Part shown: in pieces, positions 9,570 through 35,877 of the stretch
Position numbering within the stretch: the stretch's first letter is position 1
How the letters are laid out: every line of letters begins with the position of its first letter
Assembly: GCA_001917665.1 (NCBI GenBank)
Contig: MNEL01000057.1
Location: 1-64,000 of the forward strand
DNA from: Gemmatimonadetes bacterium 13_1_40CM_69_22
Lineage (GTDB): Bacteria > Gemmatimonadota > Gemmatimonadetes > Gemmatimonadales > GWC2-71-9
Reading direction: 5' to 3'
DNA length: 64,000 nucleotides
The notes under the pieces: model-generated
Database searches by the model: none
What the model saw: only the letters and a program-made list of their open reading frames with translations
Told to the model about the DNA's origin: nothing
Made by a program: the position numbers and the translations under genes

Positions 9570-10866
9570 CCTTCATGGTGGCGAGGGCGCCCATCGCCTG
9601 GTCCTCCTCGATGACGAGCGGCGGGTTGATGCGCACCTCGGGATTGTAGATCATCGCCAGCACGCCGCGCGACAACAGCGTGTCGAAGATCCACCGGGTC
9701 GTCTGCTTGTCGAGCAACGTGCGCGTGCCCGGCACCACGAGGTCCAGGCCGATCAGCAAGCCGCGGCCGCGCACATCCGAGACGATCGGTACCTCCGACT
9801 CCCAGCGCCGCATCTCGGCCAGCATCTTCGCTCCCAGCCGGCGGGAATGCTCGACCAGGTCCTCCTCGAGAATCGTCTCGATCGTGACCCGCGCGGCCGC
9901 GGCCGCAAGCGGATTCCCGCCGTAACTCGACGAGCTGCCGCTCGGATTGGCGAACGGCTTGGCGAACGCGACCTCCTCGCGCGCGATGAGCCCGCTCATC
10001 GGGAAGCCGCCGCCGAACCCCTTTCCCACGGTGATTACGTCGGGGATCACGCTCTCGTGCTCGATGGCGAACATCTTTCCGGTGCGCCCGAACCCGGTGA
10101 TCATCTCGTCGCAGATCAGCAGCGCACCGAGCTCGTCGGCGAGACGGCGGAGCACCTGGAGATAGCCCGGCGGCGGGACGACGTTGCCCGCGGTCCCTTG
10201 GATCGGCTCGACGATGATCGCCGCCACGTCCTTGCTCGTCTCGAGCTCCACCTTCTTCTTGAGGAACTCCACGCAGTGCCACTGGCACGACGGGAACGTC
10301 TTGTCGAACGCGCAGCGCGCGCACGCGGCATACGGCGAGAGATAGGCGCCCGGCATGAGGGGGCCGAGCGCGTGCTTGAAGCTCGCGCCGAGCACGGGGA
10401 GCACGCCGCCCGTCTTGCCGTGAAAACCGCCCCAAAACCCGAGCACTTCGGTGTGCCCGGTGCGCGACTTCGCGAGCCGCAGCGCCGCCTCGACGGCTTC
10501 GGCCCCGCTCGAATAGAACTGCGTCCGGTTCAAGTCTCCGGGCGCGAGCTCCGCGAGCAACTTGACGAGCGCCGCACGGTGCTCGGTGGTGAAGCTGCCG
10601 ACGTGAATCCGCGCGATCTGGCGCTGCAGCGCCGCCACGTACCGGGGATGCGCGTATCCGAGACTCGCCACCCCCACGCCCGCGAGGAGGTCGATGTAGC
10701 TGTTGCCGTCCACGTCGTACAGGACGGCGCCCTCGCCGCGCTCGATCGCGAGCTGGCTGAACAACGCCACGCTCTGCGTCCCGGGAGCGAGGGAGAGCGC
10801 CTCGAGGTCGAACAGCGTCTTTGACCTGGGCCCGGGGATCTGGGTCTTGCGCAGGGTATGCGTCAC
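9532..10866 (-). CDS. Class III PLP-dependent aminotransferase
   Basis: 444 residues from a GTG at 10866 in a GTGA overlap. Family features visible: SSGAEAVEAALRLAK (cofactor phosphate loop), FHGKTGG, the catalytic Asp region CDEMITGFGRTGK and the Schiff-base lysine in TVGKGFGGGFPMSG. The length is normal for GABA/ornithine/acetylornithine-type aminotransferases. A cysteine-rich patch (CARCAFDKTFPSCQWHC, near residue 180) is not standard and might bind a metal. In this operon the acceptor may be the ketone produced by the Gfo/Idh/MocA enzyme. A function on 4-aminobutyrate or putrescine cannot be excluded. Confidence 0.82.
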   Translation of the reverse strand: MTHTLRKTQIPGPRSKTLFDLEALSLAPGTQSVALFSQLAIERGEGAVLYDVDGNSYIDLLAGVGVASLGYAHPRYVAALQRQIARIHVGSFTTEHRAALVKLLAELAPGDLNRTQFYSSGAEAVEAALRLAKSRTGHTEVLGFWGGFHGKTGGVLPVLGASFKHALGPLMPGAYLSPYAACARCAFDKTFPSCQWHCVEFLKKKVELETSKDVAAIIVEPIQGTAGNVVPPPGYLQVLRRLADELGALLICDEMITGFGRTGKMFAIEHESVIPDVITVGKGFGGGFPMSGLIAREEVAFAKPFANPSGSSSSYGGNPLAAAAARVTIETILEEDLVEHSRRLGAKMLAEMRRWESEVPIVSDVRGRGLLIGLDLVVPGTRTLLDKQTTRWIFDTLLSRGVLAMIYNPEVRINPPLVIEEDQAMGALATMKDVLGEAAERLVG

Positions 10867-20892: not shown

Positions 20893-21495
20893 TCAGGGAC
20901 GCTCCACGCGGTAGACGGGATGGATTTCCCACAGGGCGCGCAACGACGAATTGCAGCGCCCGTGCTTCGGGTCGATCGCATCGCGCCGGCGCGCGCCCGC
21001 CCGGTGATGGCCATCGAAGAATGCGGCGCCGACGATCTGCACTGCGACGGGCTTCGCCAGCACGCCGCTTTTCGACCGCCTCCGGCCGGCGACCAGCCTT
21101 CCCAGGTCCGCGCGTGCCTGCCGATACGTGCCCCCGAGCTCCACCAGCGGGATCTCGGCCACGATGCAGGAATCGGCCGGGCTGTCCCGTCGATCGGTCA
21201 GCTCGATGTGCCAGTCGCCGTCGTCCTTGGACGTCTCGAGGCGGCGGACCCAGCCGCGCACCCGGTAGACGAGCAGCTCCCGCGCGGCGCGCGGCACGCA
21301 CCAATCCCGGGCCGTGACCGCCGGCGGATTCCAGCTCTGCAGCATCTCCGAAATCGACGCGGGCTGTGGCGTGATTGCGGCGAGCGTCGTGTCGATCTTC
21401 GCGCTCCAGCGGTAGCGCGGCTCCGCGCACCGCTGCCGCTGGGGCGGCGGTTCGGACCAGAGCCCGACGAAGGTCAGGACGGCGACGCGCCACAC
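20893..21495 (-). CDS. Conserved secreted protein of unknown function
   Basis: 200 residues from a GTG at 21495, with a short hydrophobic N-terminus (MWRVAVLTFVGLW). The middle contains DGDWHIELTD and CIVAEIPL, and the C-terminal part has AVQIVGAAFFDGHHRAG, then a segment NSSLRALWEIHPVYRV. This D-W/Y-H-I ... F-F-D ... E-(I/L)-H-P pattern recurs in small secreted bacterial proteins without assigned role. It lies 10 bases after the polyphosphate kinase gene and is probably its operon partner. Confidence 0.6.
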   Translation of the reverse strand: MWRVAVLTFVGLWSEPPPQRQRCAEPRYRWSAKIDTTLAAITPQPASISEMLQSWNPPAVTARDWCVPRAARELLVYRVRGWVRRLETSKDDGDWHIELTDRRDSPADSCIVAEIPLVELGGTYRQARADLGRLVAGRRRSKSGVLAKPVAVQIVGAAFFDGHHRAGARRRDAIDPKHGRCNSSLRALWEIHPVYRVERP

Positions 21496-21505
21496 GTCCG
21501 GCTGG

Positions 21506-24500
21506 CTACGCGCGCCCTGCTTCGGCGAGACGCATCAGGTGTTCCTGTGCGCTGGCGCGGACGGCGCCGGATGGCGCGGCACGGCGATAGTACGCGCCGT
21601 CCGGGCCCAGCTCCCATGCCGTCGGGTCTGCGAGCTCCATCTCGAGAATGCTGTCGAGTCGGGTGCGACAGTCGCGATCCAGAATCGGAGTGGCCACCTC
21701 GACCCGCCGGCGCAGGTTGCGGGGTCGCCAGTCGGCCGACCCGATGTAGTACTCGGGCTCACCGCCGTTGGCGAAGCAGAACATGCGCCCGTGCTCGAGA
21801 AAGCGCCCGAGAATGCTGATGACGCGAATCCGGTCGGAGAGCCCCGGCACCCCGGGGCGCAAACAGCAGATGCCCCGAACCACGAGATCGATCTCCACCC
21901 CCGCCTGGGAGGCGCGATACAGTGCGCCGATCACGTCGGCGTCCGCCAGGCCGTTGAGCTTGGCACGGATGCGCCCACCGCGTCCCGCGCGGGCGTACTC
22001 CGCCTCACGGTTGACGAGTGCGAGAAGGCGCTCGAGCATCTGTTCCGGCGCGACCAGCAGGCGGCGGAAGGTGACCCGGGGAGGCCGCGACGACCCGCTC
22101 AGCTCGTTGAACAGGTCGTTCACGTCGGCGCCCAGCTCGGGGTGCGCCGTGAGCAATCCGAGGTCCGTGTAGACCGCCGCGGTCGCGGCGTTGTAGTTCC
22201 CCGTCCCGACGTGGACGTACCGCCGGATCCCACCGCCCTCGCGACGCACCACGAGACCGACCTTGGCGTGCGTCTTCACGTCCACGAGGCCGTACACCAC
22301 GTGGATGCCGGCGCGCTCCAGCTTCTTGGCCCAGTCCACGTTGCGCTCTTCGTCGAAGCGCGCCTTGAGCTCGACGAACACGAAGACCTCTTTTCCGGCT
22401 GCCGCCGCCCGCACCAGCGCGTCGGCGATGTGCGAGCGCCCGCCGGGCCGGTACAGCGTCAGCTTGATCGCCACCACGTCCGGGGCGTCGGCCGCCTCGA
22501 CGAAGAAGCGCTCCACCGCGTCCGGAAACGAATCGTACGGGTGGTGCACGAGCACGTCACGCTCGGCCACGACGTCCAACACCGACGTCGCCGCCTCGAG
22601 GACGCGACGCCCGGGAAACGGCGGGTATTGCAGGGGTGGCCGGGGGAGGTCTGCGATCTCGCGGAGGGCCAACGGGTCGAGTGGTCCCGCCATGTCGAAC
22701 AGGTCGGCGTCGCCGAGCGTGCTGACGTGCGCCGCGTCCTCGAACTGCAGCTCGCGCAGCAGCAGGCGGCGCACATCGGTTCGCATCCCCTGCTCCACTT
22801 CGATCCTCACCGCGAGGCCGTACGGCCGTCGCTTCGCTTCCTCCTCAATGACGTGCAGCAGATTCTCGGCGTGCCGCTCGTCCAAGTCGAGATCCCCGCT
22901 GCGGGTGACGCGGAACGTGTAGGCGGCTTCGATCTCGCGGCCTCGATAGACGAGGTCCAGACACCCGCGCACCACCTCCTCGAGCGATACCAGCCCGCCG
23001 TCGTCCGGCAGCGGCACGAGGCGCGGCAGGCCGTCCGGCAGTTTCACATACGCGAAGTGCACGGGCCCGGTCACCGAATCACGCACCAAGGCGGCGAGCG
23101 ACAGCCGCAGGTTCGCCATGACCGGGAACGGGTAGCCCGGGGCTCGGGTGATCGCCTGCGGCGTGAGCAGCGGAAAGACCTGGTCGACGAAGTAGCGGCG
23201 CAGCAGCACCCGCTCCGGCTCGCTCAAATCGCTCCAGCCCCGCACCCGGATGCCCTGGGCCTGGAGCGCGGGGAGGCACTGCTGCGCCCAGCAGTCCGCG
23301 TACCGCTCCAGGTGGGACCGCAGCCGGATGAAGATGGCGTCGAGCTGCTCCTTGGCACTGAGCCCGTCCTCGCTCAGGTCCGCCACGCCCATCTGGAGCG
23401 CCCGCTTGAGGGCGCCGACCCGCACCATGAAGAACTCGTCGAGGTTGGTGCGGAAGATCGACAGGAAGCGGACCCGGGCGAGCAGGGGAAGCGTCGCGTC
23501 CTCCGCTAGGGCGAGCACACGGGCATTGAACTCGAGCCAGCTCAGTTGGCTGTTCAAGAAGTGGTCGCGCAGGCCCAACGCGGACTCCTCGACCGCCGAA
23601 GGCCGTCGTTCCCGCAGGCCGGCGATGGCCCACTCACGCGTGATCACCCCCGGGGAGACAGTGGCCGAATCTCTCGATGCACCGCGTGGCCGCGGTCCGT
23701 TCGGCCATTCGGGCACGAGGTCCGAGCGCGCGGCGACGGCGAGGGCGGCGAGCGTACGCGGCTCGTGCAGCACCGGCGCCCCGACGCGCTCGACGACCTC
23801 GGAAAGCGGCACCCACTGGATCTGCATTCCCTCGGGCACCGCCAGCCCCTTACCGAGCCGCCGCGCGAGCCACACTTCCAGTAAGGGACGGCCCGGCGCG
23901 GCCGGAACGGTCCCCAGCAGACGGACCTGGCCATCGGCGCTCCCGAACTCCGTGCGCAACACGTACCGGCAGCCCTCCTCACCGCTGCCGCTTCCGGCCG
24001 GGAGCATCAGCGTCCCACCGGCGTGGCGCAGCGCGATCTGTCCCTGCTCCAACGCCATCACCGCCACCGCGCGATTCTCCTGCACCGCGCGCGCCAGCGC
24101 CTCACTCTCGAGCGCCTCGTGCAGCTTCTCGGCCCGCTCGCGCTTGCCGATCAACAGCGGGCGCACGTCATGGTCGTCGCGGAACGCGCTCACCAACCGA
24201 TCGAGCCCGGGCCACCCGCGACGCAGGGTGCGGATCTTGAGCTCTTGAAACGTCCGGGCGAGCCCGCCGGCCCGAACTGTGACGACATCGTAGCACAGCT
24301 CGTAGACGGCCTCCGCGAACCAGCGGGGCCGGCTGCGGCGCAGCCGGCGCTCGGTCTCGAACTCGATTCGCGACGTCAGCAACTGGGGATCGATCAGCGC
24401 GCGGAGCCGACGCGCGGGGTCGGAGCTGCCCGCGAGCGCCGACGGCTCGTCGAGCTCCGCCACTTCGGCTTCGTACAGCTGGGTCGATCCCACTGCGCTC

Positions 24501-24727
24501 CCGGGCCCAGGCTCGACTCGCAGAGTCAGCAATCGCCGGTCGTCGATACGAGTCCGGAAACGGCAGGTGACACCCCGGCGGCGCAGGGTCCGGTCGGGCG
24601 CGTCGAAGTAGACGTCCCGGTTGAAGAGCGTCTCGATCGACCCCGCCCGCAGTCCGGCCGGCAGCGGCGCCAGGACGAGGCGGTTCAGCAGCTCGAGGCT
24701 CTTGACCTCCCCGCGATAGTCGCGCAT
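21506..24727 (-). CDS. ppk1: Polyphosphate kinase 1 with N-terminal CYTH-like and Nudix-like domains
   Basis: 1073 residues; ordinary PPK1 is about 690. Residues 386-1073 are a complete PPK1: LNSQLSWLEFNARVL, SIFRTNLDEFFMVRV, HHPYDSF, and the two catalytic-region histidines in VKTHAKVG (H820) and YVHVGTGNYN (H839), 19 apart as in E. coli (435/454). Residues about 5-205 resemble a CYTH triphosphate-tunnel domain (GEVKSLELLNR, FNRDVYFDAPDRTLRRRG, R-x-R pairs, QELKIR). Residues about 218-335 look like a degenerate Nudix fold without an intact Nudix box. ATG 24727 is fixed by AGGAG five bases upstream. Reaction: ATP to polyphosphate, reversible. Context: DUF4956 and kinase-like barrel proteins. 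Confidence 0.88.
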   Translation of the reverse strand: MRDYRGEVKSLELLNRLVLAPLPAGLRAGSIETLFNRDVYFDAPDRTLRRRGVTCRFRTRIDDRRLLTLRVEPGPGSAVGSTQLYEAEVAELDEPSALAGSSDPARRLRALIDPQLLTSRIEFETERRLRRSRPRWFAEAVYELCYDVVTVRAGGLARTFQELKIRTLRRGWPGLDRLVSAFRDDHDVRPLLIGKRERAEKLHEALESEALARAVQENRAVAVMALEQGQIALRHAGGTLMLPAGSGSGEEGCRYVLRTEFGSADGQVRLLGTVPAAPGRPLLEVWLARRLGKGLAVPEGMQIQWVPLSEVVERVGAPVLHEPRTLAALAVAARSDLVPEWPNGPRPRGASRDSATVSPGVITREWAIAGLRERRPSAVEESALGLRDHFLNSQLSWLEFNARVLALAEDATLPLLARVRFLSIFRTNLDEFFMVRVGALKRALQMGVADLSEDGLSAKEQLDAIFIRLRSHLERYADCWAQQCLPALQAQGIRVRGWSDLSEPERVLLRRYFVDQVFPLLTPQAITRAPGYPFPVMANLRLSLAALVRDSVTGPVHFAYVKLPDGLPRLVPLPDDGGLVSLEEVVRGCLDLVYRGREIEAAYTFRVTRSGDLDLDERHAENLLHVIEEEAKRRPYGLAVRIEVEQGMRTDVRRLLLRELQFEDAAHVSTLGDADLFDMAGPLDPLALREIADLPRPPLQYPPFPGRRVLEAATSVLDVVAERDVLVHHPYDSFPDAVERFFVEAADAPDVVAIKLTLYRPGGRSHIADALVRAAAAGKEVFVFVELKARFDEERNVDWAKKLERAGIHVVYGLVDVKTHAKVGLVVRREGGGIRRYVHVGTGNYNAATAAVYTDLGLLTAHPELGADVNDLFNELSGSSRPPRVTFRRLLVAPEQMLERLLALVNREAEYARAGRGGRIRAKLNGLADADVIGALYRASQAGVEIDLVVRGICCLRPGVPGLSDRIRVISILGRFLEHGRMFCFANGGEPEYYIGSADWRPRNLRRRVEVATPILDRDCRTRLDSILEMELADPTAWELGPDGAYYRRAAPSGAVRASAQEHLMRLAEAGRA

Positions 24728-24738
24728 CCGGCTCCTGC

Positions 24739-27297
24739 TCAAAACGCGAACCCGGCCCGCACGTACACACGCGTCCCCTCCACGCTTCGCGCGGCGGCGA
24801 CGCTCAGGGTGTTGGTCCGGCTCAAGAACGCGACCCACATACCGCCGCCCACCGCCGCGTGCCACCGGTCCGACGTCTCCCCAGCCAGGTAGACTCGCCC
24901 CGCGTCGGCCAATCCGAACACGCCGAGCTCCTCCGGCACCAGCATGAAGAGTCTGGCAAGGCGCAGCCGGAGCTCTGCGTTCCCGTACACCGCCCCATCA
25001 CCGGCGAAGCGGTGCTCGGAAAAGCCGCGCACGGTCGCAGCGCCCCCGATGTACGCAGCCTCATGGAACGGATATGCCCCCCAAACTTTCTTCCCCGCGA
25101 CCCGCAGTGCGAGGGTGGGTTGGAGCGGGATCGGCGCCGTCAGATAGGTCGCCACCTCCGCGTGCCCCTCGCCGAACGGCGCGGCGACGTCGTAGGCCGC
25201 CGCATACCAGCTGCCGCCGAGCGTGAGCAGTGCGCCCCGTCCCGGTGCCCGCACCCGATCCCGAGCGTCGAACCGCAGCTCCGCCCGCGCGCCGACCTGA
25301 AGGAAGTGCGGGACACCGGACGGCCGCAACGACCCGACGAGCGTCCCCGTGTCGACCGTCGTTCGGGCGTACTTCAACAGTGGGCCGAGCGAGAACCGGG
25401 CAATGCCCGAGCGGGCGACGAACGACGGGCCGATCAAATACTGCTCTTGGCGCACCTTGTAATAGTCGTCCGACCTTGGCGCGGCGATCTCGTTGCCGAA
25501 GCCGTAGAAGCGCACGACCTCGATGCCCGATGCCCGAAGATCGAGGTCAGCGTCCAGGCCCCACGCGACATCGCGAAAATCGCCGGTAACCGCCGCGCGG
25601 AAGCGCTGCGCCGCGGTCGCGTAGCTCACGCTGAAACCGAGCTGCGACCGGTACGGATCCTGGCGGAAACCGTACCAGGTACCGGTCTCGCCGATCCCGG
25701 CGACGACGCCCAAGTCCGGCGCGAAGAGGAGTCGCACGCCCGGATTCCAGCGGGCGCCCCAATCGCGCAGCTGTGGCTTGGTGGGATCATCCCGCGGCCC
25801 GTCCCGCGCCGCGCCGCGGTCGACGGACGTGCGCGGCCCGGTGATCAGCCGTGCCGGTGGATGGTCCATGTAGAAGTAGTTCCGCCCCCACCCCCGCGCC
25901 GAGTCCACGACTGCGCTCTTCCCCGCCCCGGTAATGACGCGCACGGTGATGCCGCCGTGGCCGGCCCCCCGCACGACGACCCGATCGTCCCCACCGTGCA
26001 GGTACAGCCGGACCTCGCTCGTTTCCTCCCGGCGGAACGTGCGGGCGAAATACGGCGTGCCGTCGGGCCGCGACAGCTGGACCGCCACCGCGCCGTCCCC
26101 GCGACGCTCCACCCCAGCGACGTCGGCCTCGTCCGTGGCCTGCACGTCGACCGAACCCGCCAGCAAGGCGTAGAACCGGTCCGAGGCCATCCGCAGCAGA
26201 TCGCGTCGCCGCTTGAGCGCGCGGGACAGCCGTGCACCGTCGCGCGCATAGTACTCGGGCGGCAACCGCCGCACCGCCGCGTCGATCACCGAGTCCGGCA
26301 ACCGTGCCTGCAGCGCTCCCGCCACCGAATCCCACACCGGCTTCTCGAGGTCGACCAGCAGGCGGCGATCCAGCGCGCGACCGTCCCACGTGAGCCCGAT
26401 CATGGCCGGATAGCGATCGCCGAAGCCGACGAGGTCCGGGTAATAGTAGCGCGCCAGCCCCGGGAGCACGCCGTCGAGCCGGGAGAAGGCCTGATCGCGA
26501 TCCCGCGGGATCGGCCGCCAGACGTGGACGCCACCTTCATCGAACCGCGCCCAGCGCCACTGGTCGGGGTGGCGGTCCCAGTCGCCGACGAAGACGTCGA
26601 GCAGGCGCGCCGCGAGCAAGGCGCGCGAATCGACGCGATGACGCGAATCCCGCGTGAGGTGCTCCCACAGCTTCTGCGTGCTCGCGATCTTCTCCGCCCC
26701 TTCGAACCCGACGTCTTCCTCCGGATCGACCGTGGGACGCTCCTCCAGTTGGCCCAGCATCCCCTTGAATTCCGGAAACGAATCCAGGCGCGGGTCATCT
26801 GGCATCGCCACCAGTTGGGGCTCGGCGTGGTACACACCCGCCGCCCGCAACAGCGGACCCACCACGAGGGCCCCAGCCGGATGGCTCGCGCTGATCTGAT
26901 CCTGGAGGAGCCGCTCCACGAACGTCGCCCGGAGCTCGGGGGGCATCGCACCAGCGGGGTCCTTGTCGACGGACCGGAAGACGTACACGTGACCATCCGC
27001 GCCGCGGAGGCGGAGCGACTTCGTCTGGCGCCCGCCGCCGCGCTTGAGCGGCGTGAGTCCGCCGCCGAAGCGCGCCAGGTCGAGCACCGGCACCTGAATC
27101 GGCGTCGCCCAGAGGTTGCGATAATGCGCGCCCAGCAAAGCCCGATGCAGCCAGCCGGCGCTGTACTGGGGGCCCGCCGTCACGGTGGCGGAGCCCCGCG
27201 CCGGCGCGCCGGGTGACCGCGGCGGTGCCTGCCCCCCGAGCGGTCCGCTCCCGGCGGCGACCAACAGCAGGCCCCGGCACCCCAGTCTACGCGCCAT
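24739..27297 (-). CDS. Outer-membrane protein: kinase-like domain fused to Omp85-type beta-barrel (copy 2)
   Basis: 852 residues, ATG 27297 two bases after the stop of its paralogue. Signal-like N-terminus, then a conserved block LDLARFGGGLTPL and VYVFRSVDK (K112). The catalytic-looking signature GDWDRHPDQWRW (238-249) and PIPRDRDQAF (262-271) resembles the D-x-H/N and D-F-G-equivalent loops of CotH/HipA/FAM20-like atypical kinases. From about residue 560 the sequence is amphipathic beta-strand, with VRGFSEHRFAGD matching the Omp85 (V/I)RG(F/Y) motif, and it ends in ...GFAF, a terminal aromatic as in barrel proteins. Sequence similarity to the gene at 27300 runs through the whole length. Predicted to expose a phosphotransferase in the periplasm; biochemical role unproven. 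Confidence 0.75.
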   Translation of the reverse strand: MARRLGCRGLLLVAAGSGPLGGQAPPRSPGAPARGSATVTAGPQYSAGWLHRALLGAHYRNLWATPIQVPVLDLARFGGGLTPLKRGGGRQTKSLRLRGADGHVYVFRSVDKDPAGAMPPELRATFVERLLQDQISASHPAGALVVGPLLRAAGVYHAEPQLVAMPDDPRLDSFPEFKGMLGQLEERPTVDPEEDVGFEGAEKIASTQKLWEHLTRDSRHRVDSRALLAARLLDVFVGDWDRHPDQWRWARFDEGGVHVWRPIPRDRDQAFSRLDGVLPGLARYYYPDLVGFGDRYPAMIGLTWDGRALDRRLLVDLEKPVWDSVAGALQARLPDSVIDAAVRRLPPEYYARDGARLSRALKRRRDLLRMASDRFYALLAGSVDVQATDEADVAGVERRGDGAVAVQLSRPDGTPYFARTFRREETSEVRLYLHGGDDRVVVRGAGHGGITVRVITGAGKSAVVDSARGWGRNYFYMDHPPARLITGPRTSVDRGAARDGPRDDPTKPQLRDWGARWNPGVRLLFAPDLGVVAGIGETGTWYGFRQDPYRSQLGFSVSYATAAQRFRAAVTGDFRDVAWGLDADLDLRASGIEVVRFYGFGNEIAAPRSDDYYKVRQEQYLIGPSFVARSGIARFSLGPLLKYARTTVDTGTLVGSLRPSGVPHFLQVGARAELRFDARDRVRAPGRGALLTLGGSWYAAAYDVAAPFGEGHAEVATYLTAPIPLQPTLALRVAGKKVWGAYPFHEAAYIGGAATVRGFSEHRFAGDGAVYGNAELRLRLARLFMLVPEELGVFGLADAGRVYLAGETSDRWHAAVGGGMWVAFLSRTNTLSVAAARSVEGTRVYVRAGFAF

Positions 27298-27299
27298 GA

Positions 27300-29909
27300 T
27301 CAGAACGCGAACCCGAGCCGGAGGTAGATCGCGGTCCGCCTCGGACTGCGGGCCACCGCGACACTCAGCGTGTTGGAGGCGCTCAAAGGCGCAAACCACA
27401 GCCCACCGCCGGCGGCGGCGTGCCAGCGGTCCGACGGCTCCCCGGAGACGTACACTCGCCCCGCGTCCGCCAGCCCGAAGGCGCCGAAGTCGCCAGGTAA
27501 GACGAGGGAGGGCCGCGCGAGTCGGAAACGGAGCTCGACATTCGCGTACAGCCCCGCATCGCCGGCGAAGCGGTGCTCGCTGTAGCCACGGACCGTGCCG
27601 GCCCCGCCGACGAACGCCGCCTCGTGGAACGGAACGCTCCCCCACACTCTCTTGCCGGCGATCCGAACCGCCAACGTGGGTCGCGTCGCAATCGCCGCCG
27701 TGAGGTAGGTCGCCGCCTCAGCGTGCGCTTCCTGAAACGGGGCGGTCACGTCCCAAAACGTCGGGTAGGCGCTGCCGCCCAGCGTGAGCAGCACGCCGCG
27801 GGTGGGGCTCGTGGCCCGGTCCCGTGTGTCGACGCGCAAACCGGCCTGCACTCCCACCTGCCCCCAGCTCCCGATTCCGTACGGCCGTCTCGTGTCGATG
27901 AAAGTGCCGGAGAGAAGATCCGTGAACGCGTATTTCAAGAGGGGGCCGACCGTCAGCTCCGTGCGGCGCCCCAGCGGGAGCACCAGGGACGGCGCGACGA
28001 GGTATTGCTGCTGCTTGACCTTGTAGAAGTCGGTCGAGCCCGTGTCCGGCGTCTCGTTGCCGAAGCCGTAGAACCGCACGACGTCGAACCCCGACCAGTC
28101 CGCGCGTATCGCCACGCGCGCGGCGCCCGCCGTCCGAAAGTCGCCCGTGTACTCCACGCCGAAGTTTCCCGCGCCCGTCGCGAAGCCCAGGCGAAAACTC
28201 ATCGACGACTGGTAAGGGAAGCGGCGGAAGCCGTAGCTGCGCAGCGTGGCCCCGCCGCCCACGATCACCCCGACGTCCGGCTGGACACTGATCCAGGTCC
28301 ACGGCGCCCAGGCACGTCCCTGGTCTCGCGGCTGGGCGTGGAACACGTCGGGCCGCTGTCGCGGAACCGCGGGTCGATGGTCGACTGCCGTGGTCGGTCC
28401 CGCCACGATCCACGTCGCACCCCGGCCGCCGTCGTACACGCGTGTCGACCGTCCCCGCCCGGCGACCCGCGAGGAATCCACCACCTCCGCACGTCCTGTA
28501 TCGCTGATCACTCGCACGAGGATACTCCGCGTCGCCGCGCCCGAGATCGTCACGCGATCGTCACTGCCCCGCAGATATAGGCGGATCTCCTTTGTCTCGG
28601 CGCGATCGAACGTGCGCACAAAATAGGGCGCTGCGATCGGTGCCGCCGGCGCCTTGGGGCGCCGCGCCAGGCGCAGGGTGACGCGGCCGTCGGCGCGTCG
28701 CTCGACAGCGATGAGCTCGGGGTGGTCCGTCGTCTCGATATCCACGTCGGCCGCGAGCAACCCGTACAGCTCGCCCGCAGCGGCCGCCAATCTGTTCCGC
28801 CGGTGCTTCAGAGCCCGTGCCAGGTCAGCCGCGTTGCCGCCGTAGTACTCGGAGGGTAGACGCCCGACGGCGAGGTCGATCACCGAGTCGGTCAGGCGCG
28901 CCTGCGTCGCATGGGCGACAGAGTCCCACACCGGACGCTCGAGATCGGTCAGAAAGCGTCGGTCGAGATCCTCGGCCCGCCAACTCAGCCCGTAGACGCT
29001 GCCGTAGTCGTAACCGAAACCCACCAGATCCGGGTGGCTGATGCGCGCGAGCCGCGGCAAGAGACCGTCGAAGCGCGAGAACGCTTCGTCGCGGTCGCGC
29101 GGGATCGGCCGCCACACGTGGCCTTCCGTTGCGTCGAAGCGCGCCCACCGCCATTGATCGGCATGGCGATCGCCGTCACCGAGCAGGAGGTCGAGCAAGC
29201 GCGCCGTGAGGAACGCGCGGGAATCCACCCGCTCACGCGAGCTGCTCCGTCGCAGGTCCAGCAGGCGGTCCGTGCCCGCGACCTCGCTCGCGCCTGCGAA
29301 CCCGCTCGCACCGCCCGGTCCCTCGCGCGGGCGCTCCTCGAGGATCCCCAGCATGCCGGCGAACTCTGGGCGGAAGTCGCCGAGGCGAGGATCGTCCGGC
29401 AGCACGACGAGGTACGGCTGCACGTGCAGCACGCCCGCCGCCCCGAGCAGGGGGGCCGCGACCAGCGCCGCGCTCGGATGCAGCACGCTGATCTGGTCGC
29501 GGACGACGCGTTCGGCGATCGTCTCGCGCAGGTCGGCCGGCAGCCAGCTCGGGTGTTTGTTCACGGAGCGAAACACGTATTCGCGACCGTCCGCGCCGGC
29601 GAGGCGGAGCGCGCGCGTCTGGGCACCACCGCCGCGCCGCAGCGGAGTCAGGCCGCCGGCGAAGGCTCCGAGGTCGAGCAACTCCACCTCGATCGGCGTG
29701 GTCCAGAGGTCACGGTAGTGGCGGCCGAACAGCACCTGATGCAGCCACCCGGCCCGATACTCGGGACCGGCGGTGACGGTGACTGTGCGGGGCGGAGGCG
29801 GCGTGCTCGCGCCGCCCTGCCCCGTGGTCGCTCCCGGCGCGAGGCCGCCCGCCGCGACGAGCGCCGCGCAAACCCAGGTTCGTTCACTCGAAGGCGTGGC
29901 GGGCGGCAT
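27300..29909 (-). CDS. Outer-membrane protein: kinase-like domain fused to Omp85-type beta-barrel (copy 1)
   Basis: 869 residues, paralogue of the next gene in the operon. Same order: signal region with an alanine/glycine-rich stretch and PPPP linker (1-45), LDLGAFAGGLTPL, YVFRSVNK (K118), GDGDRHADQWRW (244-255) and PIPRDRDEAF (268-277). A beta-rich middle is followed by a C-terminal barrel containing TVRGYSEHRFAGD and ending GFAF. Tandem duplication with divergence, particularly in the central region (residues 430-560), implies two related substrates or a heteromer. It starts 12 bases after the DUF4956 gene. Confidence 0.75.
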   Translation of the reverse strand: MPPATPSSERTWVCAALVAAGGLAPGATTGQGGASTPPPPRTVTVTAGPEYRAGWLHQVLFGRHYRDLWTTPIEVELLDLGAFAGGLTPLRRGGGAQTRALRLAGADGREYVFRSVNKHPSWLPADLRETIAERVVRDQISVLHPSAALVAAPLLGAAGVLHVQPYLVVLPDDPRLGDFRPEFAGMLGILEERPREGPGGASGFAGASEVAGTDRLLDLRRSSSRERVDSRAFLTARLLDLLLGDGDRHADQWRWARFDATEGHVWRPIPRDRDEAFSRFDGLLPRLARISHPDLVGFGYDYGSVYGLSWRAEDLDRRFLTDLERPVWDSVAHATQARLTDSVIDLAVGRLPSEYYGGNAADLARALKHRRNRLAAAAGELYGLLAADVDIETTDHPELIAVERRADGRVTLRLARRPKAPAAPIAAPYFVRTFDRAETKEIRLYLRGSDDRVTISGAATRSILVRVISDTGRAEVVDSSRVAGRGRSTRVYDGGRGATWIVAGPTTAVDHRPAVPRQRPDVFHAQPRDQGRAWAPWTWISVQPDVGVIVGGGATLRSYGFRRFPYQSSMSFRLGFATGAGNFGVEYTGDFRTAGAARVAIRADWSGFDVVRFYGFGNETPDTGSTDFYKVKQQQYLVAPSLVLPLGRRTELTVGPLLKYAFTDLLSGTFIDTRRPYGIGSWGQVGVQAGLRVDTRDRATSPTRGVLLTLGGSAYPTFWDVTAPFQEAHAEAATYLTAAIATRPTLAVRIAGKRVWGSVPFHEAAFVGGAGTVRGYSEHRFAGDAGLYANVELRFRLARPSLVLPGDFGAFGLADAGRVYVSGEPSDRWHAAAGGGLWFAPLSASNTLSVAVARSPRRTAIYLRLGFAF

Positions 29910-29921
29910 CGGTCACTCTCG

Positions 29922-30977
29922 CTACTCGTTCCCGAGCCCGCGCAACGAGCGGTATTCGGCGGCGATCACGTGGGGCGCGCCGCGCGCTTTCACTGCGTCG
30001 AGCAGCGGGCCGGGGGGCGCGTCCTTCGCGAGCCGCACCAAGTATTCGAGCGTGGACTTGCCGTCGCCGGCAGGAAGCACCTCCCGGAGCTCCCAGCGCT
30101 TTGCGAGTTGATCGAGCACCGCTTCGACGGCCTGCTGCGCCGGCTCCAGCATGGTGGTGTGGACGAGCAGCAGAGTGTTAAAGAGCCGCTTCTTGCCTTT
30201 GGCGCGATCCTCGATGTAGCGACGCAGGCGGTCCGACGCCGCCGCTACCTTCTCGAATTCCCGCGGTGCCAACGCCTGCAACATCTCGGGGTCGCCGATG
30301 ACCTGATATTCACCGGTGTGCGCGCGCGGAGCCACAATCGCCTGACCGAGCCGGAGACGTCCGGCCAACGCCTGGTCCGCGTAGATGTTCCCGACGTTGA
30401 ACTTCCACAGCGCCAGCAGCGTGTAGTTGAAAACGAGCGACATCACCGCCGACACCACGGGGGCGAACACTCCGGCAGCCATGCCCACGCCCAAGGCGAG
30501 ATAGATGTAGACAATGTCCTTCGTGTCCTTGAGCGTATTGCGGAACCGAATCGCCGCCACGATGCCGCCGAGCGCAAACGCCAGCGCGAGTGCGTTTTGG
30601 ACGAGGATGAGCGTGCCGGCGACCGTCATCGGGAGCACGATCACCGTCTGCACCACGGACTGGTCGTACCCGCGGTGCTGCTTCGTGATCATATAGACCC
30701 AGGCGACGGGTAAGGCGAGTGCGAGCGCTCCGAGCATCGACAGCAAGGTGATGAGCGCCAAGTTCGCCGAGCCGAGACTGGCAACCCCCGGCGTATTCGC
30801 CGCCTGATCGAGCGCGTCCTTCTTGCCGCCGCTGCCGTAAATCGGGGAGACTTTTTGGAAGGCGTCGAACAGATCGACGATCTGGGGCAAGGCCTTCACG
30901 AGCAGCACAACGACGAGGCCCAGCAGGACGTAATAGCCCGCCAACCGCACGAACGGGGACTGCCAGATGCGCACCAT
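29922..30977 (-). CDS. DUF4956-family membrane protein
   Basis: 351 residues: four or five transmembrane segments in the first 190 residues (first at about 10-30; a cluster at 80-190 containing FALGGIVAAIRFRNTLKDTKDIVYIYLALG in two overlapping helices), then a soluble C-terminal domain. The basic helix-loop RFRNTLKDTKD is the conserved heart of DUF4956. Family knowledge: such genes are commonly neighbours of CYTH/VTC-type polyphosphate polymerases, which agrees with the ppk1 fusion in this operon. ATG 30977 has AAGGAG at optimal distance. Head of the operon; molecular role unknown, possibly polyphosphate or phosphate handling in the membrane. Confidence 0.78.
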   Translation of the reverse strand: MVRIWQSPFVRLAGYYVLLGLVVVLLVKALPQIVDLFDAFQKVSPIYGSGGKKDALDQAANTPGVASLGSANLALITLLSMLGALALALPVAWVYMITKQHRGYDQSVVQTVIVLPMTVAGTLILVQNALALAFALGGIVAAIRFRNTLKDTKDIVYIYLALGVGMAAGVFAPVVSAVMSLVFNYTLLALWKFNVGNIYADQALAGRLRLGQAIVAPRAHTGEYQVIGDPEMLQALAPREFEKVAAASDRLRRYIEDRAKGKKRLFNTLLLVHTTMLEPAQQAVEAVLDQLAKRWELREVLPAGDGKSTLEYLVRLAKDAPPGPLLDAVKARGAPHVIAAEYRSLRGLGNE

Positions 30978-31089: not shown

Positions 31090-32964
31090 TCAGCTGGCTG
31101 GGTCCGCTGCGTCGAGCATGCGCTGCCGCTGCCCCGGCGTCACCATGTCGCGCTCCACCACGTCGCGCATGATCCGGGCGACGAACGCGTAGCCGCGCGG
31201 CTCGACGGTCAGCCAATGCTGCCACTCGAGCTCATCCAGCGCCGCAGCAAGGGCGTCGGCGTCGAGCCCCGACCCGCGCGCCAAGCGCGCCGCCGAGACG
31301 CGCCCGCCCAGCACCGCCGCGACCTGCAGCACGCGCTGCGCTTCGGTCGTGAAGCGCCGGAAGCCCATGCGGATGGCGGCCACCACGGCGTCCGGGAGGT
31401 CGCCCGGCAAGGTCTGATCGAAGGTGCGGAACGGCTCAGGCCAGGCGCCGTGCGAGTCCCGCAGATCGAGGCCCACCGCCACCGCCCGCAACAGCTCGAC
31501 CGCGAGCAGCGGGATGCCCGCCGAATCGGTTGCCACGCGTCGCGTCACGCGGTCGAGCTCCACGTCGTTGTAGCCGGGCAGCGCCCAGCGCGCCAGCGCC
31601 CGGAGCGCGTCGCCGGAGAGCGACTCGAGCCGCACCGCGGCCCCCAGGAGCTCGCGTCCGATCCGCACCCGCAGCGCATCGAGCTCGGCGCGGGGCGGCT
31701 GAGCCGTGATCGTGAAGAGGAGGAACAGCGGAGCCGGAGTGAGATCGCGGGCGACGGCACCGAGCGCGAGCAACGACTCGCGGTCGACCCACTGCGCGTC
31801 ATCCACCAGCACGAGAACCGGCTGCTCGTCCGAGATCGCGCGCAGCACTTCGCTCAGCGCGCGGCCAACTGGCTCCGCCGCCGCGCCGCCGGCGCGGAGC
31901 GTGGAGAGCGAGGGCGGGGCCGCCCCTGCCACACCGGGCGCCTCGAGCAGGCCGCCCCGCGCGATACCGTGCACCCCGCTCCAGGGATCGTGCATGTCTG
32001 CCTCCACGGCGCGCACCGCCGCGGTCGCCGCCCCGTCGAGGCGCGCCCGGTCCATCAGCTCCTCGGCCAACCGCGTCTTCCCAGCGCCTGCGTCTCCTTC
32101 GACGATCGCCACGGCAGGCCGCCGCTCCCGCCGACACGCGGCCCACGCGTCGAGCAGCTGCTCCAACTCAGCGGCGCGCCCCACCAGCGGCGACCGCTGT
32201 GCTGTCGCGGCGACGTCCTCGCCCGGGCGCGTGCGGGCGGGCAGCCGCCACACCCGCTCCCGCCGGATCCGCTCCGCGAGCGCTTTCGTGTCCGCATCAG
32301 GCTCGGTGCCCACGTCGGAGTGGAGGCGCGCCGCGAATTCGTCGAAGTGGGCGAGCGCGCCCGCCCGGTCTCCCGTGAGCGCGAGGCAGCACATGACCGC
32401 CCGCACGGCCGCGTCGGAGCTGCGCTCGAGCCCGAGCGCCCGTTGGGCCACGGCCTGTGCGGCAGTGACGCTTCCCGACCGGAGCAGCTCGTCGACGCGG
32501 TGGAGCAGCGCGTCCACGGAACGCGTGCGCCAGAACGTCCGTTCCGCGGCGACCCAGTCGTCGAGGCCCGACGCGCCCGGGACGCTGAAGCCCTCGAGGA
32601 ACTCCCCGCTGACGAGCGCGGCGGCGGCCGCGTAGTCCCGCCCGGCCACGAGCGCTTCGAGCCGATCGATATCGAGCTCGACGGCACCCGCGCCGAGTCG
32701 CACTTGGTTGGTATCCGACGTGAGCCCGCCTTCACCGAGGTAGCGGCGCAGGATCCGCACTGCCTCGTTGAGCGAATGGCGCGCGTCCTTCTCTAGCTTT
32801 TCAGCCCACAGCAGCCCGAGCAGATGCTCCCGGGTACGGGTGCGCTTCGGCGAGCGTGCGAGGTACACGAGGAGCGCCAGGTTCTTGCGCCACAGGAGCT
32901 CGGGCGGCGCGCCCATGCCGTTCACACTCACCTCCACGGGCCCGAGGACGCGGCACACGATCAT
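31090..32964 (-). CDS. BTAD/SARP-family regulator with AAA ATPase domain (copy B)
   Basis: 624 residues from ATG 32964, overlapping the kinase stop as ATGA. Domain order as in the protein at 16207: winged helix (MIVCRVLGPVEVSVNG ... ELLWRKNLALLVYLARSP), BTAD helices, Walker A EGDAGAGKT, Walker B VLVLVDDAQW and a helical C-terminus ending in the shared MVTPGQRQR. The strong similarity indicates duplication of the whole regulator. Co-transcribed with its kinase, unlike copy A which is divergent from its kinase. Candidate target: the direct repeat at 31004 before the polyphosphate operon (inference). Confidence 0.87.
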   Translation of the reverse strand: MIVCRVLGPVEVSVNGMGAPPELLWRKNLALLVYLARSPKRTRTREHLLGLLWAEKLEKDARHSLNEAVRILRRYLGEGGLTSDTNQVRLGAGAVELDIDRLEALVAGRDYAAAAALVSGEFLEGFSVPGASGLDDWVAAERTFWRTRSVDALLHRVDELLRSGSVTAAQAVAQRALGLERSSDAAVRAVMCCLALTGDRAGALAHFDEFAARLHSDVGTEPDADTKALAERIRRERVWRLPARTRPGEDVAATAQRSPLVGRAAELEQLLDAWAACRRERRPAVAIVEGDAGAGKTRLAEELMDRARLDGAATAAVRAVEADMHDPWSGVHGIARGGLLEAPGVAGAAPPSLSTLRAGGAAAEPVGRALSEVLRAISDEQPVLVLVDDAQWVDRESLLALGAVARDLTPAPLFLLFTITAQPPRAELDALRVRIGRELLGAAVRLESLSGDALRALARWALPGYNDVELDRVTRRVATDSAGIPLLAVELLRAVAVGLDLRDSHGAWPEPFRTFDQTLPGDLPDAVVAAIRMGFRRFTTEAQRVLQVAAVLGGRVSAARLARGSGLDADALAAALDELEWQHWLTVEPRGYAFVARIMRDVVERDMVTPGQRQRMLDAADPAS

Positions 32965-35798
32965 GGCGAAGCTCCGCAGTGGAGCTCGGACATCCGCCGG
33001 GTGGCGCTGTCGGCGCGGGCGCGGTAGCGCGCGTCGCCGCTCGCCCACAATCGCTTCACATCCCGGTATGCGCGGCACGCGACGTCGCCACGGTCGAGCA
33101 GCGGCGCGACGCGCCACCGCGCGAGCGCGCCGAATGCCCAGTCGACTTCGGCGAGCTCGGGTTCACCGACCGGGTAGCGGTACACGTCCGAGTTCTGGTA
33201 CCAGACCAGCTCCCGCCGCGCACCTTCTGGCGAAGCAACGCCTTGGTACCACTCCGCGCGAAGCAGGTGCAGCACGGCGCGGAAGAAGGGATCTGGATCG
33301 GACGCTCCTGCCTCCATGACCATCGCGGGCTCTGACAGCTTCAGCGCCTGACGCACATCGCCGCGAGACGCAGCCTCCACAGCGGACAGTAGTCGACCCA
33401 AGGGACGGGGCTGCGGCTCGTCCGCGAGCAGGGCGTGCACACCGGCATCGTCCCACTCTCCCAGCCGCCGGGCGACGAGGGCGATCATCCACGCGGCTCG
33501 CTGCCGCTCTTCCGGAGCGGTCGCCGGCAACGTAGCGCGCTCGGCGAGGGACGCGTGGATCGACGCCCACCGCGCGCGTCCGGCCGAGTCGGGATCGAAC
33601 GCGAGCCAAGCCGCCTCGAACTCGTCCGCGAACAGCGCGAGACGCCGTTCGCCGTAGCGGACCTGGAGCCGGCGTAGCGCCGCACGGGCCGAGTCGACGC
33701 GGCCCAGGCCGAGAGCGCCAAAAGTCTGCGCGAGCAGCGCCGAGCGGGCTAGCCGCGGGCGCGCTTCGAGGATCCGCCCGAGGTCAAGCGCGCCGAGTTG
33801 CGCGTCGAAGTACGGCAAATAACGCGCCCCAGCGTCGAGCGCGGTGGCGCCCGCAGCCTCCGTTTTGCGAACTTGCTCCACCGTGACGCTGTGGGCGCGG
33901 GCCGAGTCCAGGAAGCGCCAGGCGAAGGCGACATCGAGGAGCGCGCGAATCTGGGCGGTGAAGGCATCGCTCGACGGGCCGGTGGAACGCAATTGTATAA
34001 GCGCGCGGGTCGCCTCCTCCGAATCGCCGTCTGCGATCGCCCGCCACGCCAGGTGCTCCCACGCAGGGCCGAAGTCGGCGCGCCCCTCGAGCAGGTCGTT
34101 GAACGGCGGTACGGCTTCCCGCCGGGCGCGGCCGATAAGCGGGCCCCGGTGCAACAGCTCGTCGGCGAGGCGAAACCGCCCGAAGAAGAACTCCGGCCAG
34201 CGGCGGACGCCGGCCTCCAAATCGGCGATCCGGTGATCGAGGGGACGTGCCTCAGCGTCGATGAGCCATTGGTACTGAGCGGGAAACAGACTGCGGTGCT
34301 GCTCGTAGCGGGCGACCTCGTCGCTGTCTTCGGGAAGGCTGAGCCACCGGCCCACTTCGACGTGGCGCCAGTCACAGATCCAGCACGTCGTGTCGGCTGC
34401 CGCGGCTCGGCCGTAGGCCGCGTACGCTTCACCCCACCGCGCCTGGGCAAACAAGTGCTCCGCTGCGAGGAACGCCCCCCGAGCCGCAGGACCCTTGGGC
34501 AAGATCGCAGCGGGTAGCGACGGCTCGAGCGCTCGACCCGGACCGAGCAGAGAATCGAAGCTACCGGCCGCCAGATCCGCGACGCCCTGCCGCCAAGCCA
34601 TCGCCGGGAACGACGCCACCTTCTGCCAGCGCCCGCCCCCCGGACCCGCCCTCACGCGAATCGTGTCGCCAGTCGCGTTCACCTCGCCCTCGAGTCGCGT
34701 CTTGCGCTGGAACCGGCCCCACGGCCGTTCGCATGGGCCGCGCACGGCTAGATCCGGATACCGACCGAGAGCGTCTGCGAGGCCGCAGGAGATCGAATCC
34801 CCGAGCCACTGTTCTGCGGGCGAACTCGTGGTCGCGAAGCGTGTGATCTGGATTCGCGTCGGGCCACGCTGAAAGCCGAAGATGTCCGACAACCAGCGGA
34901 GGACCAGCGGCCTCCATGCGGGCAAGTTCGCTCCGAGCATGAGACACCCGATGGCAATGGCGATCACGCGACGCTGATAGGGCCAGACTCGCGCATGCCA
35001 AAGCCGACGCCGGAACGAAGTAGCGTCGCGCCAACGGTCCTCAGGCTTCCACGCGAGGGCGCGCTTGAGCACACGCGCCTCGAGACGGGGGACACCGGAC
35101 CACGCTCCGCGAGCCAAGCGCTGAGTCTCGAGCCAGTGCCGGCCCGTGTAGGCCTCATAAATCACTAGCGCTGCTGCGTACAGATCGGTGCCCGCCGTCG
35201 CCTCCGCTCCGCCAAGCTGCTCGGGCGACCAGTACGCGCGCGTCCCCGGTCTCATGCCCGGCGCGGTGAGCGGATCGCCGATGGACTCCAACGTCCCGCC
35301 CAGTACCTGAACGTTCTTGGCAATGCCGAAGTCCACGAGCACGGCGCTACCGGCGACGAGGAAGACGTTCGCCGGCTTCACGTCCCGGTGGACGATGCCA
35401 CGGGTGTGTGCGGCCTCGAGCGCGGCGAGCAGATCGCGGCCGAGCTTGCGAACCTCGTTTGCGGGAATCGGCCCTTTTCGCAGGCGATCGGCGACCGTCT
35501 CGCCCTCGAGATACTGCATGGTGTAGTACGGCAGGCCATCAGGGGTCTCGTCGGCCTCGTACACCGGCACAATGTTGGGATGGGAGACGTGGGCGAGGGT
35601 CTTCGCTTCGCGCTGGAAGCGCTCGGTGGCGATGGCGGTGTGCAGCTCGGGACGGATGACCTTGACGGCGACCGGGCGGTCGAGCGAGACCTGGCGGGCC
35701 AATACGACGATCCCCATGCCCCCGCTCCCCAGCTCGCGTTCGACCTGGTAGCCCTTCTCCGCCAGAGCGGCCCGCACCCGCTCGAAGAACGAGGGCAT
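32961..35798 (-). CDS. Membrane Ser/Thr protein kinase with C-terminal helical-repeat sensor (copy B)
   Basis: 945 residues from ATG 35798. Kinase domain: GSGGMG (24-29), K46, HRDVKPAN (137-144), DFG (156-158), SPE in place of APE (191-193). A single hydrophobic helix near 270-290 is followed by a TolB-N-like segment RIQITRFATTSSPAEQWLGD. The remainder is TPR-like (ARWGEAYAAYGRAAAADTTCWICDW and similar, in broken repeats), with a Cys pair CWIC. The sensor diverges from that of copy A, so the two kinases probably read different envelope cues. Directly precedes and overlaps the BTAD gene it probably controls. Confidence 0.87.
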   Translation of the reverse strand: MPSFFERVRAALAEKGYQVERELGSGGMGIVVLARQVSLDRPVAVKVIRPELHTAIATERFQREAKTLAHVSHPNIVPVYEADETPDGLPYYTMQYLEGETVADRLRKGPIPANEVRKLGRDLLAALEAAHTRGIVHRDVKPANVFLVAGSAVLVDFGIAKNVQVLGGTLESIGDPLTAPGMRPGTRAYWSPEQLGGAEATAGTDLYAAALVIYEAYTGRHWLETQRLARGAWSGVPRLEARVLKRALAWKPEDRWRDATSFRRRLWHARVWPYQRRVIAIAIGCLMLGANLPAWRPLVLRWLSDIFGFQRGPTRIQITRFATTSSPAEQWLGDSISCGLADALGRYPDLAVRGPCERPWGRFQRKTRLEGEVNATGDTIRVRAGPGGGRWQKVASFPAMAWRQGVADLAAGSFDSLLGPGRALEPSLPAAILPKGPAARGAFLAAEHLFAQARWGEAYAAYGRAAAADTTCWICDWRHVEVGRWLSLPEDSDEVARYEQHRSLFPAQYQWLIDAEARPLDHRIADLEAGVRRWPEFFFGRFRLADELLHRGPLIGRARREAVPPFNDLLEGRADFGPAWEHLAWRAIADGDSEEATRALIQLRSTGPSSDAFTAQIRALLDVAFAWRFLDSARAHSVTVEQVRKTEAAGATALDAGARYLPYFDAQLGALDLGRILEARPRLARSALLAQTFGALGLGRVDSARAALRRLQVRYGERRLALFADEFEAAWLAFDPDSAGRARWASIHASLAERATLPATAPEERQRAAWMIALVARRLGEWDDAGVHALLADEPQPRPLGRLLSAVEAASRGDVRQALKLSEPAMVMEAGASDPDPFFRAVLHLLRAEWYQGVASPEGARRELVWYQNSDVYRYPVGEPELAEVDWAFGALARWRVAPLLDRGDVACRAYRDVKRLWASGDARYRARADSATRRMSELHCGASP

Positions 35799-35819
35799 GG
35801 ATGGATGTCCCGGCGAGAG

Positions 35820-35848
35820 AACATCCCGGCCGGTCACCGGAAAGTCAA
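35820..35848 (-). promoter_or_regulatory. Probable promoter of the kinase B / BTAD B operon
   Basis: On the minus strand TTGACT (35848-35843), a 17-base spacer and GATGTT (35825-35820), ending 21 bases upstream of the kinase ATG. The -35 matches 5 of 6 consensus bases; the -10 is weak. It abuts the terminator hairpin of the upstream cupredoxin gene. Confidence 0.35.
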
Positions 35849-35849
35849 A

Positions 35850-35877
35850 CGGCCCCGGGACCAATGCCCCGGGGCCG
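35850..35877 (-). terminator. Rho-independent-type terminator of the cupredoxin gene
   Basis: CGGCCCCGGG (35850-35859) pairs perfectly with CCCGGGGCCG (35868-35877) around an 8-base loop. Read on the minus strand the stem is followed by TTTGACTTT, a short T-rich tail. Confidence 0.65.

Follow-up and report, generated by a model that had tools for sequence, protein, structure and literature searches.

The Omp85 proteins studied to date serve mostly in the assembly or movement of proteins, and one member of the superfamily, the patatin-like PlpD, is dimeric and keeps its enzyme domain in the periplasm (PMC11116518). Another subfamily, named 'Metallo', joins an Omp85 barrel to an N-terminal PF00149 domain (Heinz and Lithgow 2014, PMC4104836); that domain was taken for a metalloprotease, and no kinase was reported in the study. 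The spore-coat kinase CotH, for its part, is an exported atypical Ser/Thr kinase (5jd9/5jda; PMC7821199), and a set made up of CotH, a polyphosphate polymerase and DUF4956 has been reported beside pel in Gram-positives (PMC7112168). Here we analyse a 64,000-nucleotide stretch from the soil-dwelling Gemmatimonadetes bacterium 13_1_40CM_69_22 (contig MNEL01000057.1, positions 1 to 64,000; the whole stretch is called the window below), in which a DUF4956 gene and a gene for a CYTH-PPK1 fusion enclose two genes for barrel proteins with a kinase-like domain, OmpKin1 and OmpKin2. The OmpKins are probably outer-membrane-anchored, periplasm-facing phosphotransferases of an atypical kinase fold, carried on Omp85 barrels that lack POTRA domains and belonging to a module with DUF4956 and a polyphosphate enzyme. 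This reading is suggested by the predicted kinase fold, a conserved set of active-site residues, the fusion to a barrel and a conserved gene neighbourhood.

The genes form a tight operon on the minus strand, in the order DUF4956, OmpKin1, OmpKin2, CYTH-PPK1. The preliminary description of this DNA had placed all four within positions 24739-30977. The genes and the motifs quoted for the OmpKin pair, namely YVFRSV(N/D)K, GD(G/W)DRHxDQW, PIPRDRD(E/Q)AF and VRG(Y/F)SEHRFAGD, were all found, but the CYTH-PPK1 gene occupies 24727-21506 and lies nearly entirely beyond that interval. Furthermore, the frame of 968 amino acids (aa) from position 27645 given for OmpKin2 is too long; the gene starts at the ATG at 27297, 3 bases past the OmpKin1 stop. 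The features are as follows.

29922..30977, minus strand: DUF4956 inner-membrane protein, 351 aa (PF16316)
27300..29909, minus strand: OmpKin1, 869 aa, with signal-peptide-like N-terminus, kinase-like domain, all-beta domain and Omp85 barrel
28755..29792, minus strand: predicted kinase-like domain of OmpKin1, residues 40-385 (AlphaFold2 and Foldseek)
29556..29579, minus strand: YVFRSVNK, N-lobe strand plus the next residue, with R114 and K118 (conservation)
29151..29180, minus strand: GDGDRHADQW, putative catalytic loop with D245, D247, H249 and Q252 (conservation and secondary structure)
29079..29108, minus strand: PIPRDRDEAF, putative metal loop with D272 and D274, equivalent to DFG (conservation)
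28350..28748, minus strand: all-beta domain of residues 388-520, separating the kinase-like domain from the barrel (DSSP of the model)
27303..28202, minus strand: Omp85 beta-barrel of OmpKin1, containing VRGYSEHRFAGD and ending in F (PF01103, 7.3e-10)
24739..27297, minus strand: OmpKin2, 852 aa, tandem paralogue of OmpKin1
25897..27183, minus strand: kinase-like domain of OmpKin2
21506..24727, minus strand: CYTH-PPK1 fusion, 1073 aa (Pfam PPK1 and CYTH)
20896..21534, minus strand: open reading frame of about 200 aa after CYTH-PPK1, possible extra operon member, frame uncertain

No Pfam family matched the first 550 residues of OmpKin1 or OmpKin2, and a comparison of the kinase-like domain with PDB sequences gave no match. 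An AlphaFold2 model of OmpKin1 residues 40-545, computed without templates from an alignment of 89 relatives, reached a pLDDT (predicted local distance difference test) of 92 and a pTM (predicted template modelling score) of 0.92, and a Foldseek search of the PDB with this model returned 11 matches at E <= 0.001, all 11 being kinases. The best were CtkA (3e-6), PI4KII-alpha (1.7e-4), HipA (1.9e-4) and Rio2 (6e-4), plus a bacterial kinase; Fam20C was a weaker match (E 0.027). The model of the DUF4956 protein, by contrast, had no match at E <= 0.001. The pre-barrel domain of OmpKin1 is thus predicted to adopt a two-lobed kinase fold, in line with the kinase-like nature proposed for it earlier, and the fold search suggested at that time to tell a kinase from a POTRA or other non-kinase fold came out in favour of the kinase. 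None of the 89 members showed a convincing match to Pfam. Since sequence methods (Pfam, PDB sequences and the CotH profile comparison described below) find no relative, the domain is a family of its own inside the kinase fold as modelled. The OmpKin2 copy is about 60% identical to that of OmpKin1 and has its active-site motifs intact; in a tree the two fall into separate clades, the pair of the window corresponding to the pair of a genus-mate.

The conserved motifs occupy fitting positions in the predicted fold. That is, a strand bearing R114 and then K118 is followed by a helix (191-204 in the model), the GDGDRHADQW loop, a beta-hairpin and PIPRDRD, so that the putative catalytic loop is flanked by a helix and a beta-hairpin, the placement known from kinases. 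A lysine (K118), a candidate catalytic aspartate (D247, with D245) and a candidate metal-binding aspartate (D272) accordingly occur in the right order. R114, D245, Q252 and D272 are invariant in the 89 aligned relatives, and K118, D247 and D274 are each kept in 88 of them. Position and conservation together support the earlier suggestion that GD(W/G)DRHxDQW and PIPRDRD(Q/E)AF would be catalytic and metal loops of kinase type. At the positions of the invariant D245 and Q252, the HipA and CotH types carry N.

Both OmpKins match Omp85 barrel profiles: that of OmpKin2 is PF03865 (ShlB; 6e-6, above the cut-off), its PF01103 score being 23.8 against a cut-off of 24. The Omp85 VRG(F/Y) motif reads VRGYSEHRFAGD in OmpKin1 and VRGFSEHRFAGD in OmpKin2, and both proteins end in FAF, with the C-terminal aromatic residue of the superfamily. 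No POTRA domain was found before either barrel by Pfam, and in the model the region consists of the kinase-like and all-beta domains; residues 388-520 of OmpKin1 contain only strands and are therefore not a POTRA domain. On the basis of the AlphaFold2 model, the region before the barrel was judged to be neither POTRA nor another accessory fold of Omp85 proteins. By analogy with PlpD, we infer that the kinase-like domain faces the periplasm. Moreover, tandem OmpKin pairs occur in the window and at several other loci and PlpD is a dimer, which makes an OmpKin1-OmpKin2 heterodimer plausible. In the genome of the window (72% complete), a 482-aa frame that lacks the kinase-like domain encodes one more Omp85 barrel of this type, the third (G000:C50:12089-13114, L003).

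The kinase-like domain is widespread. It was detected in 75 of 249 genomes of the window's phylum, Gemmatimonadota, and in 72 of 198 genomes of Pedobacter's phylum (the Bacteroidota group); although it is thus present in about one third of the genomes sampled in either group, it has no Pfam family. Scanning of a species-level collection yielded at least 585 confirmed loci, the best 80 of which belong to Gemmatimonadota, Bacteroidota, Ignavibacteria/Chlorobi, KSB1, Latescibacterota, Calditrichota, Acidobacteriota, Poribacteria, Aminicenantes and further groups. The domain is also present in four plasmid records (Hymenobacter, Persicobacter), as a hypothetical or unannotated product. Most copies are attached to a barrel, and some proteins of 430-580 aa have none. 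In Rufibacter (L155, L160, L162, L165) and Pontibacter (G251), the kinase domain occurs as a protein of its own, about 530-580 aa long and without a barrel; Pontibacter has several of these per genome.

The operon association is likewise not restricted to the window. Among the 249 Gemmatimonadota genomes, 48 of 100 domain copies have a DUF4956 gene at a distance of 10 kb or less, where 0.66 would be expected (an enrichment of about 70-fold), and 38 have one within 3 kb; the two occur together in 61 genomes (Fisher p = 3e-11). All four genus members that have the domain (the genome of the window, G215, G205 and G114) keep the arrangement DUF4956, one or two OmpKin copies, CYTH-PPK1, so that the four-gene neighbourhood first noted in the window is indeed conserved elsewhere. 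Given the 75 genomes of the phylum, the 585 or more loci, the enrichment beside DUF4956, the near-complete retention of active-site columns and the operon kept in all four genomes of the genus that have the domain, neither the domain nor its operon association is a product of chance.

The strongest argument that the DUF4956 module needs an exported kinase is that sequence-unrelated proteins of kinase fold are swapped in one slot. Twelve DUF4956 loci without OmpKin encode instead a secreted CotH-like protein of about 390 aa with the motifs GNTDxS..LHN and YDFDFSG, the best single member of which matches the CotH Pfam family at 1.3e-6. At two loci (L184 and L185) the order kinase, DUF4956, CYTH-PPK1 corresponds to the operon of the window, except that the CotH-like kinase has taken the place of the barrel kinase, and a third locus of the same phylum (L178) has the classical operon of CotH (2e-58), VTC (1.5e-24) and DUF4956 (7e-48). 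At the latter (6998-10495) the order CotH, VTC, DUF4956 is continued by DUF2490, which looks like a small outer-membrane protein, and this form too may therefore reach the outer membrane. A second DUF4956 gene in the genome of the window (contig C37, L180, 1503-3429) directly follows a gene for a secreted CotH-like kinase. In the window, the slot beside DUF4956 and CYTH-PPK1 would be filled by an exported kinase-fold protein from a sequence family other than CotH. Only one of the 89 members reached 0.0052 with the CotH family PF08757, none matching clearly, and hhalign gave a probability of 0.2% against CotH and against the CotH-like set, these alignments being shallow and the CotH-like set itself also failing against CotH. 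Membership of the CotH family by sequence was ruled out by these two comparisons; the likeness of the OmpKins to CotH is one of fold and motif only.

Neighbouring genes were counted in two sets of 60 and 80 loci, for groups backed by Pfam or profiles only; contigs end within some loci, which makes the counts lower bounds. DUF4956 was present at 33/60 and 21/80 loci, CYTH at 15/60 and 5/80, a calcineurin-like phosphatase, as a gene or fused domain, at 34/60 and 46/80, and an SdiA-regulated/phytase-like protein at 17/60 and 38/80. In Bacteroidota, the phosphatase precedes the kinase-like domain and the barrel in a single polypeptide of about 1,250 residues, the phosphatase being fused at 27 of the 80 loci. 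The neighbouring or fused phosphatase has its metal ligands intact and weakly matches purple acid phosphatases. The PF00149 phosphatase is absent from the OmpKins of the window, and no close homologue was found in four genomes of its genus. The set of DUF4956, two OmpKins and CYTH-PPK1 is mostly a Gemmatimonadota variant, and the wider core consists of the kinase-barrel protein, the phosphatase and the SdiA-regulated/phytase-like protein.

As to the partners in the window, the DUF4956 protein matches PF16316 (6.2e-10, over the cut-off) and has predicted transmembrane helices and a C-terminal beta-alpha-beta-beta-alpha-beta domain. Its AlphaFold2 model is modest (pLDDT 70, pTM 0.45), and its C-terminal domain weakly resembles, among others, that of MgtC (2lqj; E 0.02). 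With only this small domain matched at such a pTM, the structure was dropped as a clue to a channel. The CYTH-PPK1 protein, in which no signal peptide was seen, contains four PPK1 Pfam domains (to 1e-67), exceeds the cut-off of NCBIfam PPK1 TIGR03705 and has a CYTH match barely above the cut-off (5e-5); it takes the place of a VTC-type polyphosphate polymerase, for which the window operon gave no Pfam match. The metal-binding ExExK motif of CYTH is not conserved, relatives having GEVKS, ADVPT or CDVPT at that site, and CYTH as a working triphosphate-tunnel enzyme was set aside on this ground. The site is thus probably not functional as such, and the CYTH part may just bind polyphosphate. The small frame after CYTH-PPK1 has a similar counterpart in the same position in five relatives and matched no Pfam family. 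Immediately upstream of DUF4956, on the same strand, lies a gene for a BTAD/AAA_16 transcriptional regulator (31090-33117, minus strand), possibly a regulator of DUF4956. The operon is bordered by genes for two large Ser/Thr kinases whose C-terminal parts are long (18168-20885, plus strand; 32961-35864, minus strand), and similar genes border it in relatives.

If the OmpKins are phosphotransferases, their domain, of a HipA/CtkA/PI4K/FAM20/CotH-like fold and anchored by the POTRA-less barrel, would put phosphate on an envelope target, e.g. an outer-membrane protein, lipid or glycan, with the inner-membrane DUF4956 protein and the cytoplasmic polyphosphate enzyme supporting the exported kinase from inside. 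In many relatives the adjacent or same-chain purple-acid-phosphatase-like enzyme would reverse the modification, and the window would represent a reduced version with two kinases, as the phosphatase was not found in its genus. Speculatively, DUF4956 might pass polyphosphate outward as the phosphate donor. Several points weigh against the phosphotransferase reading. The active-site geometry comes solely from motif order and secondary structure, and the best matches among solved kinases have modest TM-scores (0.44-0.52, by target), probably owing to insertions in the kinase-like domain. Proteins with a kinase fold may instead carry out AMPylation or glutamylation, or have no activity, and ATP is normally absent from the periplasm, which leaves the donor unexplained. 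Moreover, about half of the OmpKin copies lack a DUF4956 gene at a distance of 10 kb or less, and both DUF4956 and PPK are missing from the vicinity of most Bacteroidota fusions; the polyphosphate link is therefore not essential to the OmpKin family. Bacteria may attach phosphate groups at the outer membrane and take them off again, but a widespread reversible system, in which an Omp85-barrel kinase is paired with a phosphatase eraser and polyphosphate from CYTH-PPK1 or VTC is exported via DUF4956, seems quite unlikely to us; such a supply, if real, would explain how the kinase works without ATP.

The domain could also be active without being a protein phosphotransferase, moving AMP or another group, as the kinase folds of SelO and SidJ do, or phosphorylating a small molecule or lipid. 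The lipid kinase PI4KII among the best structural matches would agree with this, as would the neighbouring phosphatase and SdiA-regulated/phytase-like protein, which suit a small phosphorylated ligand, and D245 and Q252 may point to a different chemistry; the overall Lys/Asp/Asp arrangement is, however, of the ordinary phosphotransfer type and nothing specific indicates AMPylation, and we consider this alternative unlikely. It is very doubtful that the domain serves as a pseudokinase or structural plug that binds nucleotide, polyphosphate or a partner and gates or helps the barrel in protein or lipid transport: it does occupy the usual POTRA position, and transport would suit the known roles of Omp85 proteins (PMC11116518), but near-full conservation of acidic active-site residues across about ten phyla is unusual for pseudokinases, and the existence of barrel-less forms implies that the domain works without a barrel. 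More doubtful still is a coincidence of genes, in which the barrel kinases would work separately and DUF4956 and CYTH-PPK1 would serve cytoplasmic polyphosphate storage. Many OmpKin loci do lack DUF4956 and CYTH-PPK1, and many DUF4956 loci lack OmpKin; against this stand the linkage far above chance, the replacement of OmpKin by an unrelated exported kinase in the same slot and the independent report of CotH with a polyphosphate polymerase and DUF4956 (PMC7112168).

The kinase-like domain gives the 'Metallo' Omp85 class a testable role, ties DUF4956 to exported kinases generally and sharpens the question of the donor used by extracytoplasmic kinases. No outer-membrane kinase was found in the open-access literature and, to our knowledge, a bacterial kinase integrated in the outer membrane has yet to be described; if activity is shown, OmpKin would be the first known to us. 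CtkA and HipA are the closest solved folds, and HipA has a D-x-D-x-H loop similar to that of the OmpKins, but both are soluble, show no detectable sequence similarity and differ in the metal-binding N, which is Q in OmpKin. The CotH spore-coat kinase has comparable N-x-D and D-x-D loops but no barrel, and its profile comparison with the OmpKin domain was not significant. PlpD shares the plan of an Omp85 barrel with an N-terminal enzyme domain, shown in its case to be periplasmic and dimeric; its enzyme is a lipase rather than kinase-like, and its gene neighbourhood is unrelated. The preliminary description knew of no characterised system of this composition, which holds in part: the CotH-VTC-DUF4956 set (PMC7112168) and the 'Metallo' class (PMC4104836) were published, whereas the kinase part of the latter had gone unrecognised. 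Like the former set, to which L178 also belongs, the window has a predicted exported kinase-fold protein clustered with DUF4956 and a triphosphate-tunnel/polyphosphate enzyme, but its putative kinase comes from another sequence family and is carried by an outer-membrane barrel, CYTH fused to PPK1 replaces VTC, and no pel genes were seen. The Bacteroidota relatives share the 'Metallo' architecture (compared at the level of architecture), whereas the OmpKins of the window carry the kinase-like domain but lack PF00149. What is new here is the kinase-like domain, its tie to the 'Metallo' Omp85 proteins, the pairing of kinase and phosphatase, and the CYTH-PPK1 form of the module.

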